DNA of 64,000 bases from NCBI GenBank assembly GCA_036496605.1, contig DASXKV010000033.1, positions 62,001 through 126,000 of the forward strand, written 5' to 3'. Origin of the DNA: Gemmatimonadaceae bacterium. GTDB lineage: Bacteria > Gemmatimonadota > Gemmatimonadetes > Gemmatimonadales > Gemmatimonadaceae. The notes under the pieces were generated by a model. The model searched no databases and had not been told where the DNA came from. It saw only the letters and a list, made by a program, of their open reading frames with translations. The translations under genes were made by a program, and so were the position numbers. Positions 25,367 through 29,110 of this stretch are shown here, piece by piece (within the stretch, counting starts at the first letter, position 1; each line of letters begins with the position of its first letter).

Positions 25367-26026
25367 TCAGGGCGTTCCGCGCGAGCGGGCGTCGATCCCC
25401 TTGAGCAGCACCTGGGTTCTCTGCTGTACCGATGCTTCGGGCGGCCGCCCCGCATCGATGTCCCGCTCCACCGCGGCGCGGAGCGATGCAAAGTCGTCCG
25501 CGGGCGCGCGGCGCGCCACCAATGAATCGATTGCCGCTGCGGCGGCGGGCGCGGGGACGCGCCGCGTCAATAGATCCGCGAGCGCCACGAGCGGCGTTGC
25601 GAACGACGTCCGGCGTCCGCCGGACGCACGATACGTCTCCTCGAGCCGCGTCAGCATCACCGTCGTCGCGCCAACGTGCAACGCGCTTGCCGCCGCGACG
25701 AGATCGGCGTCCTCGATGCTTGGACCCAACGCGGCTCGCGCTTCACCCAGCTCGCGCGCGAGCCTACGCACCGCGGCGATGATTCGCGCGTCCTCCGCGC
25801 CCTTGAGCACACCTTCGAGTGCTTTCGCGTACACCGGCTCGTCAGGCAGATGCGCCGCGCGCAACGAATCACCGAGTCGTGCGATGGCCTGACGAGTAGC
25901 CGGCGCAAGCTGCGCCGGCAGATCCGCGGCCGTCAGCGGAGTCACCGTCGGTCGCTGCGCCCGAACGACTGGCGCAAGAGTGCCGAGAACGACCAACGCG
26001 CCTAACGACCATCGCGATCCCGTCAT
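25367..26026 (-). CDS. Exported helical protein of unknown function, last gene of the sigma/CBM48 cluster
   Basis: A 219-residue protein with a signal peptide (LGALVVLGTLAPVVRAQ). The mature part is rich in Ala, Arg and Leu and appears all helical, with no cysteine and no motif I recognise. Its ATG overlaps the stop of the CBM48 membrane protein (ATGA), so it is translated together with it. Position and export suggest it acts in the periplasm with the other products of the cluster. Downstream 136 bases to the next gene hold nothing recognisable. Confidence 0.8.
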   Translation of the reverse strand: MTGSRWSLGALVVLGTLAPVVRAQRPTVTPLTAADLPAQLAPATRQAIARLGDSLRAAHLPDEPVYAKALEGVLKGAEDARIIAAVRRLARELGEARAALGPSIEDADLVAAASALHVGATTVMLTRLEETYRASGGRRTSFATPLVALADLLTRRVPAPAAAAAIDSLVARRAPADDFASLRAAVERDIDAGRPPEASVQQRTQVLLKGIDARSRGTP

Positions 26027-26658
26027 GTCTTTGCCCCTCCCGCCGCGACAAGTACGACCGAGCTGGGCACCCCGAAGTCGTCGTCGCCAGCGCGCGGCGC
26101 CCCCGGATCAGGCGCCAGATCCCCATCCACGATGAAAGAGTACACGTGCCGTCCTGGTGCGAGCGGCACGTCGAGCATCCACGACCGGCCGTCGCCAGAA
26201 CGGTGCATGGGCATCGCCGACGGGTTCCAGCCGTTGAAGTCCCCCACGAGCGAGACGCGTGTCGCGTAGGGCGCGACGAAGAAGAATCGGACGGTCGAAT
26301 AGGCGCCGGCTACCCCCGCGCGCTCAGCCGGAACGGGCATCGTCGCCGGGAGATTCACGAGTTGATCGCTCACGTCGCGACGCACACGACCGCCGAGGAG
26401 GAGCGCCGTGGCGGCAGCGCCGGCGAGCGCACACACAAGCCCGGCGGCGATCGCTGTCAGTGGACGCAACCGCCATTGCTTAACGGCGCGCGGGGCTTCC
26501 GCGGCTTCGCCCGGCGATGGAAGCATCGCGACGCCGCGAAGCACGCCGGCACGCCACTCCATGCGCACCGGCACTGGCGTTCGCAGCTCGGCTACAACCC
26601 GGTCGAGCGACGCGGTCACTTCGTCCGCGGTTTCGGACTCGGCTTCATGATGTGACAT
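26023..26658 (-). CDS. Single-pass membrane protein with periplasmic CBM48/AMPK-like glycogen-binding domain
   Basis: A 211-residue protein with an acidic N-terminal cytoplasmic part (residues 1-65), one membrane segment (about 67-90), a linker, and a C-terminal domain at about 120-205. That domain shows VRFFFVAPYATRVSLVGDFNGWNP, WMLDVPLAPGRHVYSFIVDG and PSSVVLV, the CBM48/AMPK beta glycogen-recognition pattern including the FNGW core. It lies directly after an ECF sigma factor and overlaps it by 14 bases, where an anti-sigma factor is normally encoded, and has anti-sigma topology. No zinc-binding HxxxCxxC motif is present. A sugar-sensing anti-sigma role is inference only. Confidence 0.84.
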   Translation of the reverse strand: MSHHEAESETADEVTASLDRVVAELRTPVPVRMEWRAGVLRGVAMLPSPGEAAEAPRAVKQWRLRPLTAIAAGLVCALAGAAATALLLGGRVRRDVSDQLVNLPATMPVPAERAGVAGAYSTVRFFFVAPYATRVSLVGDFNGWNPSAMPMHRSGDGRSWMLDVPLAPGRHVYSFIVDGDLAPDPGAPRAGDDDFGVPSSVVLVAAGGAKT

Positions 26659-27187
26659 CGTTGACCTCGCCTAACAATTCCTGGAGCCGCTCGCACGCGC
26701 GCTTCACGCGCATCTTCAGCGCCGACACGCCAGCGCCCGTCACGGCTGCCATTTCCTCATACCCAAGTTGCTCCACATGCTTGAGAAGAAACGCCTCACG
26801 TTGATCGGGATCGAGTTGCGCCAGCGCCCGTTCGATCTCGATGCGCAGCTCCGTCGCCGCGGCATGGTCGCCGCTCACCGCCCCTGCCATCGCGTCCTCG
26901 TCGGTCACGACGCGCCGAACATATCGACTCCGCTGAAGCAACGACGTCCGGCAACGATTCACCAGAATCGCGAATAACCACGTTCGGAAGCTGCTGGCGG
27001 GATTGTACGTCGCCAATGCGCGATAGGCTCGGAGCAGCGCTTCCTGAGTAACGTCCTCCGCATCATGACGGCCGCCGAGCATGCGCGTCGCGAAGCGCAG
27101 GCACGGCTGCAAATGCCGGTCGACGAGCAGGGTGAAGGCCCGTGCATCTCCGTCGAGCACGCGGCGCACGAGCGTAGCATCGGTCAT
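26645..27187 (-). CDS. ECF-type RNA polymerase sigma factor
   Basis: A sigma-70 family protein of about 180 residues. Region 2 runs from DARAFTLLVDRHLQPCLRFATRMLGG with DAEDVTQEALLRAYRAL and FRTWLFAILVNRCRTSL; region 4 has LDPDQREAFLLKHVEQLGYEEMAAVTG and ALKMRVKRACERLQELL. It directs core polymerase to a dedicated promoter set. ATG at 27187 gives the typical ECF length; a GTG at 27226 overlapping the upstream stop (GTGA) is possible and would add 13 residues. Flanked on both sides by genes for glycogen-binding-module proteins, which are likely partners or targets. Confidence 0.93.
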   Translation of the reverse strand: MTDATLVRRVLDGDARAFTLLVDRHLQPCLRFATRMLGGRHDAEDVTQEALLRAYRALATYNPASSFRTWLFAILVNRCRTSLLQRSRYVRRVVTDEDAMAGAVSGDHAAATELRIEIERALAQLDPDQREAFLLKHVEQLGYEEMAAVTGAGVSALKMRVKRACERLQELLGEVNDVTS

Positions 27188-27222
27188 GCTATCACCGTCT
27201 ACCCTCGCGACCGCGAGCGCCG

Positions 27223-28362
27223 TCACTTCCTCGCGCCCTCCGGCTCGTGCAGCGGCTCGACCACGAGCACGCCAACCTCACCGGCGAAATCGTCGCTTAT
27301 GGTCGTTAGGCCGGGCGGCGCGATCCAGCCCCCACCGTCGACGCGCGCATTCAGGCGATGTGCGCCCGCGGTGAGCGGCAGTGTGACCGTCCAACCTCCG
27401 TCCGCTGCACCCTCGAGCGGCACTGGCTTCCAGCCGGTGAAGTCGCCAGACACTTCGACGCGGTGCGCGCGCCGCGCCGTGAGGGTGATGCGATAGCGTC
27501 CGCCTCCGAGCGCGTCAACCGCGAACGCACTCAGCGCAGCCGCTGGCGTCATCGGCCGCGTGGTGATGATCGAGCTCGTTAGGTACGGCGAGATCCGCAA
27601 GCCAAGCGTCACGAAGCGGTGCTCGGCGTCGAGCGCGAACTGCCCGCCAGTGGAGCTGCCCGCGCCAATAACGAGCGCGAGGGGTGCCGACAGCCGGACG
27701 GCGATGTTCCCCGAAGCCCAGACTCCAGTCGGCACGTTGTGACTGGCGAGGCGCCCGCCCATCGCTATCTCTGCGGAGGCGCGCCGGCCTTCCCAGGCGA
27801 CCGTCGCCTGGGTTTCCGCCCATCGCTCGGAACGACGCGCGCTGTCGCCGACCGTGCGCTCGACGCGCGTCGTGTCCCAATGGCCGGTGCTGCTATCGTA
27901 GTAGGTGTTGTAGCCGGTCACGCTTCGGCTGAAGTAGCCGGACATCGCGGCGCTTCGGCGCACGGCGGAGATCGTGACCACGAGGTTGCCGACGCGGCGC
28001 CATCCGCCAGTCTCGATGCGCGGCTGCTCGACAATATCCTTGAAGCCGTTCCGATGCACCGCTGTCATCCCCACCCACCATCCCATTGGCGCTGCGACTG
28101 ACGCGAGGCGCACCCCGCCGAATGCGTCATATTGGAATGCCGCTGGCGCGGCGACGCGGTCCAACGCACCGGCGAAGAGCGTCCGAAAAGACCCTAACGA
28201 CGCAGCCTGCATCTCACCGCTCAGTCCGACGCGCGGCTGCCAGCCGAACGCCGATCCACCGGTACCAGCACCGGCGTCGAGTCGTGAGGCACCTTGCGCA
28301 GCCGCGGGCGCGGTGGCCAGCAGCAACAGCCACGGGACGAGACGGCACTCAGAGAATGTCAT
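27223..28362 (-). CDS. Exported protein with beta-rich body and C-terminal glycogen-binding-like module
   Basis: A 379-residue protein with a signal peptide (LVPWLLLLATAPAAAQ). The middle, about residues 20-275, has repeated beta-hairpin-like stretches with glycines and aromatic residues, suggestive of an outer-membrane barrel. The last 90 residues contain YRITLTARRAHRVEVSGDFTGWKPVPL, GGWTVTLPLTAGAHRLNARVDG, the same CBM48-like fold as in the membrane protein two genes downstream. ATG at 28362 is preceded by TTGGAGATACG; an upstream TTG is not needed. First gene of the operon; sigma factor follows directly. A surface glycan sensor or porin is possible but unproven. Confidence 0.82.
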   Translation of the reverse strand: MTFSECRLVPWLLLLATAPAAAQGASRLDAGAGTGGSAFGWQPRVGLSGEMQAASLGSFRTLFAGALDRVAAPAAFQYDAFGGVRLASVAAPMGWWVGMTAVHRNGFKDIVEQPRIETGGWRRVGNLVVTISAVRRSAAMSGYFSRSVTGYNTYYDSSTGHWDTTRVERTVGDSARRSERWAETQATVAWEGRRASAEIAMGGRLASHNVPTGVWASGNIAVRLSAPLALVIGAGSSTGGQFALDAEHRFVTLGLRISPYLTSSIITTRPMTPAAALSAFAVDALGGGRYRITLTARRAHRVEVSGDFTGWKPVPLEGAADGGWTVTLPLTAGAHRLNARVDGGGWIAPPGLTTISDDFAGEVGVLVVEPLHEPEGARK

Positions 28363-28618
28363 CGTATCTCCAACACGAAACACGCGGGACAAAGGGGACA
28401 GAAAGGCCCTGTCGTTCTACCCACGCATCCGGTTGCGGCGTCACATCCACTTCGCGGCAGGTTTGCAACGGGGATCGAGTCAGACCGACGGCGCCACGTC
28501 TCCCATCCTCTTCTGCCGAACGGTGACGCCAGAAGGTTCGTCACAGGTATCACCTTCGAGAGCGGCTCCAGTGCGAGCTCTCGACGGTGTTCCGACACGA
28601 CGATCATACGGAGGCTTC

Positions 28619-29110
28619 ATGCGCTTCAGACTTCTCTCAGCGACTTGCGCCGTGGTTATGCTCGCCGGCTGCAGCGGTTCCTTCGATCCCGCGCCGTCCA
28701 CCGACTTGGGTAGTGGCGGCTCGACCAGCGGGAACGACACGACGATCACGACCGGACCTCAGACGCCCTCGCAATTGCCGCCGGTCGTCTCGAGCTTCAA
28801 CCTGTCCGGCACCGTGTTTGGAATGGATGGGGGCACCGACACGACTCGCCAAACGCCGTTGCCCAACGTGAGCGTCAAGCTCGTCAAGACGATGTCGGTG
28901 CAGGGCGACACGCTCGTCCCGAGCGTCACTGTCGCCGCGGCAATCACCGACGCGCAGGGCACCTATCGAGTGGAGAATCTCTCGCCCGCCTACTACCGGA
29001 TCGAGTTCGGCGCACCGGTCGGCTCGCCATTCATGGACGGCTCGTCGGCGATCGGCCCAGCGCGTGAGACCGAGATCAAGATGAGCGTCGCGCTCCCTCG
29101 CAAGCCCTAA
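28619..29110 (+). CDS. Lipoprotein with carboxypeptidase regulatory-like beta-sandwich domain
   Basis: A 163-residue protein with a clear lipoprotein signal: hydrophobic residues then MLAGC with Cys18 as the acylated residue. After a Ser/Thr-rich linker, FNLSGTVFGMDGG through ITDAQGTYRVENLSPAYYRIEFGAP and a final IKMSVALP make one Ig-like regulatory (CarbopepD_reg) domain, in which GTYRVENLSPAYYRI is the usual core. A perfect GGAGG precedes the ATG. It is divergent from the CBM48/sigma operon across 256 bases, so it could be one of its targets (inference). The stop overlaps a CCTAACG word. Confidence 0.85.
   Translation: MRFRLLSATCAVVMLAGCSGSFDPAPSTDLGSGGSTSGNDTTITTGPQTPSQLPPVVSSFNLSGTVFGMDGGTDTTRQTPLPNVSVKLVKTMSVQGDTLVPSVTVAAAITDAQGTYRVENLSPAYYRIEFGAPVGSPFMDGSSAIGPARETEIKMSVALPRKP

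Follow-up and report, generated by a model that had tools for sequence, protein, structure and literature searches.

The window analyzed here is a stretch of 64,000 nucleotides from a member of the Gemmatimonadaceae (contig DASXKV010000033.1, positions 62,001 to 126,000), which carries a four-gene operon on its reverse strand. In the direction of transcription, the operon encodes an exported protein of outer membrane (OM) type ending in a CBM48 glycogen-binding module, an extracytoplasmic function (ECF) sigma factor, a single-pass membrane protein with a periplasmic CBM48 domain, and an exported helical protein (Table 1). It is highly probable that the sigma factor and the membrane protein constitute an autoregulated sigma/anti-sigma pair of the Gemmatimonadota, in which a CBM48 domain of the type found in the AMP-activated protein kinase (AMPK) serves as the periplasmic sensor.

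Table 1. Features of the sigma factor operon and its divergent neighbor (window coordinates).
Feature	Position	Strand	Evidence
OM-type exported protein: signal peptide, beta-strand-rich middle, C-terminal CBM48 (~residues 290-370)	27223..28362	-	Pfam AMPK1_CBM 27.5 bits (cut-off 26.8), AlphaFold2, Foldseek
ECF sigma factor	26645..27226 (GTG start) or from ATG 27187	-	Sigma70_r2 66 bits, r4_2 51 bits, TIGR02937
Putative anti-sigma factor: two cytoplasmic helices, transmembrane segment ~68-97, periplasmic CBM48 ~121-205	26023..26658	-	Pfam, AlphaFold2
Exported helical protein, cassette-specific family, motif LPxEPxxxKALEGxxK	25367..26026	-	Family in 122/200 genomes of the phylum, mostly adjoining the CBM48 membrane protein
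Predicted operon promoter, TGTGAC-N17-GGGTA	28418..28445	-	Motif common to 66/137 cassettes
Predicted divergent promoter, GGTGAC-N18-GGTAT, ahead of lipoprotein gene	28522..28550	+	Spacing-18 form also in locus L073
Divergent lipoprotein, CarboxypepD_reg-like domain, likely regulon member	28619..29110	+	Lipobox LAGC; Pfam 26.0 bits, under the 32.3 cut-off

The genes for the sigma factor and the membrane protein overlap by 14 nucleotides (26645-26658), and those for the membrane and helical proteins share an ATGA (26023-26026); these overlaps, and the order of the four genes, are as described in the initial annotation, which had been made from the sequence alone. A further overlap that it proposed, a GTGA joining the stop codon of the OM gene to the start of the sigma gene (27223-27226), requires that the sigma gene begin with GTG and is doubtful, as the same-subfamily orthologues (L072 and L073) start where ATG 27187 sits. 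Judged by these orthologues, ATG 27187 is the more likely start, rather than GTG 27226, and would leave a gap of 35 nucleotides after the OM gene.

Conservation of the cassette

The operon is real and conserved, its order recurring far beyond chance. Among distinct cassettes having enough upstream DNA, an ECF sigma gene lies immediately upstream of the CBM48 membrane protein gene in 138 of 142, usually with an overlap of 4-20 nucleotides, and the same sigma/CBM48/helical order occurs four times in the window genome: in the window, once on contig C46 and twice on contig C3. The usual cassette continues after the membrane protein with the exported helical protein, for which no Pfam or NCBIfam match was found, and a CBM48-tipped OM-type protein. 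Six matches to the CBM48 membrane protein had no sigma gene directly upstream, two of them representing another kind of locus and four representing full-length anti-sigma types; in at least one of these four (L122), a sigma gene is present farther downstream. The sigma/CBM48 neighborhood anticipated in the initial annotation is therefore conserved, with 138 pairs set against 4 exceptions. The exceptional locus L122:1085-4093 has the order CBM48 anti-sigma, OM-type CBM48 protein, sigma factor, helical protein.

Placement of the OM gene varies. It lies 3' of the helical gene in two of the three additional cassettes of the window genome, the remaining one (C3:108542) has no OM-CBM48 gene nearby, and the OM-gene-first arrangement of the window recurs in genomes G080 and G019 (loci L072 and L073).

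The CBM48 membrane protein is encoded in 129 of 200 genomes of the sampled phylum (~65%). We infer that this phylum is Gemmatimonadota; the named records carrying the cassette are almost all Gemmatimonadetes. The Gemmatimonadota are a little-understood phylum that is abundant in soil, and a cassette found in about two thirds of the sampled genomes, with up to several copies per genome, would represent a main envelope signaling route of the phylum. A contig labelled Candidatus Eisenbacteria (L097) also bears a complete cassette of the Gemmatimonadota type and is probably mis-binned or mislabelled.

Relationship of the CBM48 membrane protein to anti-sigma factors

The sigma factor contains regions 2 and 4 without region 3 (PF04542 and PF08281, both far over their cut-offs) and scores 101.8 bits against the NCBIfam model TIGR02937, the cut-off of which is 42.9. 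The periplasmic domain of the adjacent membrane protein is a CBM48/AMPK1_CBM domain by family score (CBM_48, 38.3 bits; AMPK1_CBM, 35.7 bits) and by fold. An AlphaFold2 model of the 26023-26658 product contains helices at residues 3-24 and 32-43 (pLDDT ~84), a transmembrane helix at residues 67-96, and a CBM48 domain with pLDDT values of 92-96, which superimposes on the AMPK beta1 carbohydrate-binding module with a Z score of 13.7 and 1.7 A over 87 residues (VIA-align). The HxxxCxxC zinc motif is absent from this product; this absence and the CBM48 module had both been read correctly at the outset, as Pfam and the sequence confirm. In the model of the OM-type protein, long strands of low confidence (mean pLDDT 61) precede a CBM48 domain with pLDDT ~90, and Foldseek matched essentially just the latter, to the AMPK beta module. 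Because the strands are of low confidence and the structural matches are essentially confined to CBM48, this protein is treated here as a putative barrel.

Comparison with distant relatives makes it very probable that the membrane protein acts as an anti-sigma factor, and we infer that it inhibits its cognate sigma factor. Distant family members have retained a longer, LDGE-type cytoplasmic domain. When a profile of the N-termini of these full-length relatives was compared with 177,635 PDB sequences, RseA bound to sigma-E (1or7_C, E 0.008) ranked first and RsiW (5wuq_C, E 0.2) ranked second. In a second phylum, the CBM48 membrane protein opens with an HxxxCxxC zinc anti-sigma finger. Pfam zf-HC2 was passed in four such proteins (L112, L180, L184 and L191, the L112 protein being translated with X in place of one in-frame TAG codon), and an ECF sigma gene adjoins the zf-HC2/CBM48 gene in all four. 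The helix that follows the finger in the clearest of these relatives (PPYLKARVMA type) aligns with RseA DISSRVMAAI and with the reduced Gemmatimonadota form DxxFDARVMAAV, and in pairwise hhalign the reduced N-terminus matches the segment of the full-length relatives that comprises helices 3-4 (E 8e-4). The passage from a zinc anti-sigma domain to a two-helix domain can be followed through these proteins as a series.

Covariation across the 138 sigma/partner pairs points to the same part of the protein. Scoring was restricted to variable columns, as nearly invariant columns dominated when they were included. The top-ranked of the 118 x 123 column pairs joins column 65 in sigma region 2 to the partner column aligned with RseA S56, which sits two residues ahead of RVM; sigma column 30 is mostly R where the partner has D, and mostly Y where it has V or I. 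In RseA, S56 lies in helix 4, the sigma-2 binder, and touches sigma region 2 (PMC7406223). Together with the RseA and RsiW matches and the zinc finger of the second phylum, this covariation lends weight to the anti-sigma role originally proposed, and a sigma-binding surface within residues 1-65 of the membrane protein is supported indirectly. The window family is filed here as a cut-down, zinc-free derivative that would work like a class I anti-sigma domain (ASDI), rather than as a canonical member, because helix 1 is missing and the RVMA helix has diverged in the window subfamily (EWRAGVLRGV; GVLRGV in the window copy).

A separate observation concerns the zinc anti-sigma/CBM48 gene at L112:3627-4297, which comes from a deep-sea metagenome-assembled genome. 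Its in-frame TAG falls in the finger region (MRKCNEIEPLIYGYITGDILS*QRRVLDDHIKECDEC) and may reflect read-through, recoding or an assembly error.

Promoter motif and candidate regulon

Of 137 cassettes, 66 carry, ahead of the sigma gene, a motif of the form GTGAC-N16-18-GG[GT][TAC], most commonly TGTGAC-N16/17-GGGTA. By comparison, 4.3 occurrences were expected from Markov shuffles (maximum of 12 in 200), and 2 were counted in equal stretches inside the sigma genes. A wider description of the promoters of predicted sigma targets is TGTGAC-N16-18-GGGTA/GGTCT, and such a motif provides a handle for reading regulons from sequence. The occurrence at 28418-28445 is one of just 4 matches to the strict pattern in the 6-Mb window genome. 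As a genome-wide regulon finder the strict pattern was rejected; it returned 4 and 3 matches, among which the window operon alone was convincing. A match ~300 nucleotides ahead of a gene for an exported NlpC/P60-like protein (L092) is weak.

Control by the sigma factor of both the OM gene and the divergent lipoprotein gene, as suggested in the initial annotation, is supported by the search upstream of 28362 and 28619, where a motif is predicted ahead of each. At two orthologous loci, motifs likewise lie ahead of the genes for the OM protein, the sigma factor and a lipoprotein, those of L073 having the spacing of 18. In other cassettes, the divergent or adjacent genes encode DUF4382/CarboxypepD_reg-type lipoproteins or a family of OM-type proteins. 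The recurrence of lipoproteins and OM-type proteins among the predicted targets points to a role in the cell envelope.

Two of these neighboring families deserve mention in their own right. An OM-type family of ~500 residues (AQLISLKTVPVAAGDQF...) is encoded divergently from the cassette, with the promoter motif facing each way, at L074:3754-5466 (-), L076:3562-5073 (-) and L078:6531-8153 (+); the single member tested had no Pfam match. DUF4382 lipoproteins recur beside the cassette at L077:4431-5381 (-), L085:8724-9512 (-) and L075:7635-9089 (+), which may be a clue to the function of DUF4382 in these bacteria.

Proposed mechanism, possible signals and relation to known systems

In the proposed mechanism, the cytoplasmic helices of the resting anti-sigma factor, chiefly the equivalent of RseA helix 4, would mask sigma region 2 and prevent the sigma factor from engaging RNA polymerase. 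Release of the sigma factor would follow when the periplasmic CBM48 domain changes, in response either to bound glycan or to the condition of the OM-CBM48 and helical proteins, and would probably proceed through cleavage within the membrane by an RseP homologue. Release by intramembrane proteolysis is possible because the window genome encodes such a homologue. The freed sigma factor would then transcribe the operon in which it is encoded, and with it the genes for the OM protein and the anti-sigma factor, as well as the divergent lipoprotein gene.

Several findings weigh against this mechanism. The N-terminal domain of the window protein had no direct match to any family model searched, its pairwise hhalign values against anti-sigma domains are weak, and the profile of the reduced-domain family, searched alone against PDB, returned chance-like matches and no anti-sigma structure. 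Helix 1 of class I anti-sigma factors contacts sigma region 4, and the window protein, with two short cytoplasmic helices, is without this LDGE helix. The excess of N-terminal columns among the top covarying pairs is modest (8 of 20, with 5.2 expected), and the background is high: columns of the periplasmic CBM48 domain, which is unable to touch the sigma factor, also covary with it through shared descent. Because shared ancestry makes these columns covary too, the overall excess counts for less than which pair ranks first and where it falls. Finally, in roughly half of the cassettes the promoter motif went unmatched. The short, directly unrecognized N-terminal domain would fit an alternative in which the CBM48 membrane protein has a structural role in the envelope and nothing but the operon in common with the sigma factor, the latter being controlled otherwise. 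This is highly improbable in view of the RseA and RsiW matches, the zinc finger of the homologues, the covariation of helix 4 with sigma region 2, and the near-invariant adjacency to a sigma gene.

The cassette can be compared with several known systems. As in the RpoE-RseA pair of Escherichia coli, which operates with RseB, DegS and RseP, an ECF sigma gene is followed by that of a one-pass membrane anti-sigma factor with an RVMA helix 4, autoregulation and envelope targets are predicted, and an RseP homologue is present. Here, however, the sensor is a CBM48 domain rather than a periplasmic tail with RseB, the anti-sigma domain of the window family comprises about two helices, and the OM and helical proteins are encoded in the cassette. 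Class I anti-sigma factors, including the zinc-binding (ZAS) type, share the adjacent gene, the membrane topology, homology via the full-length relatives and the helix-4 covariation, whereas the window family is without the helix-1/2 part and thus without the bundle of helices 1-3 on sigma region 4. The SigI-RsgI systems of Clostridium thermocellum likewise link a sigma factor and a membrane anti-sigma factor to carbohydrate recognition outside the membrane, with several paralogous pairs per genome and a sigma factor that controls its own gene. In clostridia, the RsgI anti-sigma factors are responsive to extracellular polysaccharides and undergo cleavage by RseP (PMC4711584; PMC12203970). In contrast to the window system, SigI is not an ECF sigma factor and the N-terminal domain of RsgI belongs to another family; here, CBM48 is periplasmic in a two-membrane cell and no polysaccharide-degrading regulon was seen. 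The window pair falls outside the SigI-RsgI group, since its sigma factor is of ECF type and no RsgI domain appeared among the Pfam and NCBIfam matches of the window proteins. In the literature searched, which was a partial collection, no paper joins a CBM48 or glycogen-binding domain with anti-sigma factors or the class I type, and no earlier description was found there of an ECF sigma factor whose anti-sigma partner senses through a CBM48 domain of AMPK type.

The kind of domain with which the energy-sensing AMPK binds glycogen is here found in the periplasmic part of a putative anti-sigma factor. The window domain shares with AMPK beta the fold and the FNGW motif with the first stacking Trp, but differs in being bacterial and periplasmic. 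AMPK beta1 W133, N150 and K126, which we take to belong to the glycogen site, are replaced by Leu, Ser and Ser. The set of two stacking Trp residues and the Asn is thus incomplete in the window anti-sigma factor, a finding that bears on glycan binding and not on fold. All 49 homologues compared have the first Trp, and roughly three quarters of them also have the second, which the window orthologues L027 and L033 lack; K126 is lost family-wide. The OM-type protein keeps both stacking Trp residues, W311 and W346, which are invariant in alignment A10.

Two accounts of the signal are given equal weight, because the window sensor has one stacking Trp, the OM protein has both, and most of the family has the second; each is a serious possibility, held at somewhat less than even confidence. 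The CBM48 domain may bind an alpha-glucan or another periplasmic glycan and thereby free the sigma factor, as first suggested. The similarity to the AMPK beta1 glycogen-binding domain, the retention of stacking Trp residues in the family and the OM partner, and the precedent of clostridial SigI/RsgI all favor such a glycan signal, but a CBM48 fold is by itself insufficient to show glycan binding, the window copy has lost much of the site, and no alpha-glucan enzyme was seen in the regulon. With these substitutions, and with targets that are not glycan-degrading enzymes, the initial proposal of glycan sensing is not supported so far. Alternatively, the domain may read a protein partner, most likely the OM-CBM48 or helical protein, with the sigma factor raising OM and lipoprotein output, much as RseA/RseB report unassembled porins. 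This second account is consistent with the OM-CBM48 and helical genes that stand beside the sigma gene in most cassettes (in the window, behind its predicted promoter), with the recurrent lipoprotein and OM-type targets, with an N-terminus akin to that of RseA, and with a sensor domain that was kept though its sugar site eroded. Against it stand the C3:108542 cassette, with its missing OM-CBM48 gene, and the fact that we know of no precedent for CBM48 as a periplasmic protein receptor.

A broader proposal, advanced tentatively and falling just short of an even chance, is that of a phylum-wide, repeatedly duplicated cassette in which a sigma factor is gated by an AMPK-like periplasmic domain, matched by an OM CBM48, that reads glucan or the state of the outer membrane, and in which an anti-sigma domain once of zinc-finger type has been reduced to two helices that clamp sigma region 2.

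CBM48 domains were also encountered in a different setting. A CBM48/AMPK1_CBM domain forms the C-terminus of ParA/MinD-type ATPases (AAA_31, 184 bits) encoded at L113:3190-4252 (+), L193:1485-2571 (-) and L108:2160-3234 (+), as well as in L118, L189 and L194. These fusions span Omnitrophota, Latescibacterota and the phylum of genome G200, sometimes lie beside a stand-alone CBM48 protein, and possibly function in the positioning or partition of glycogen granules.

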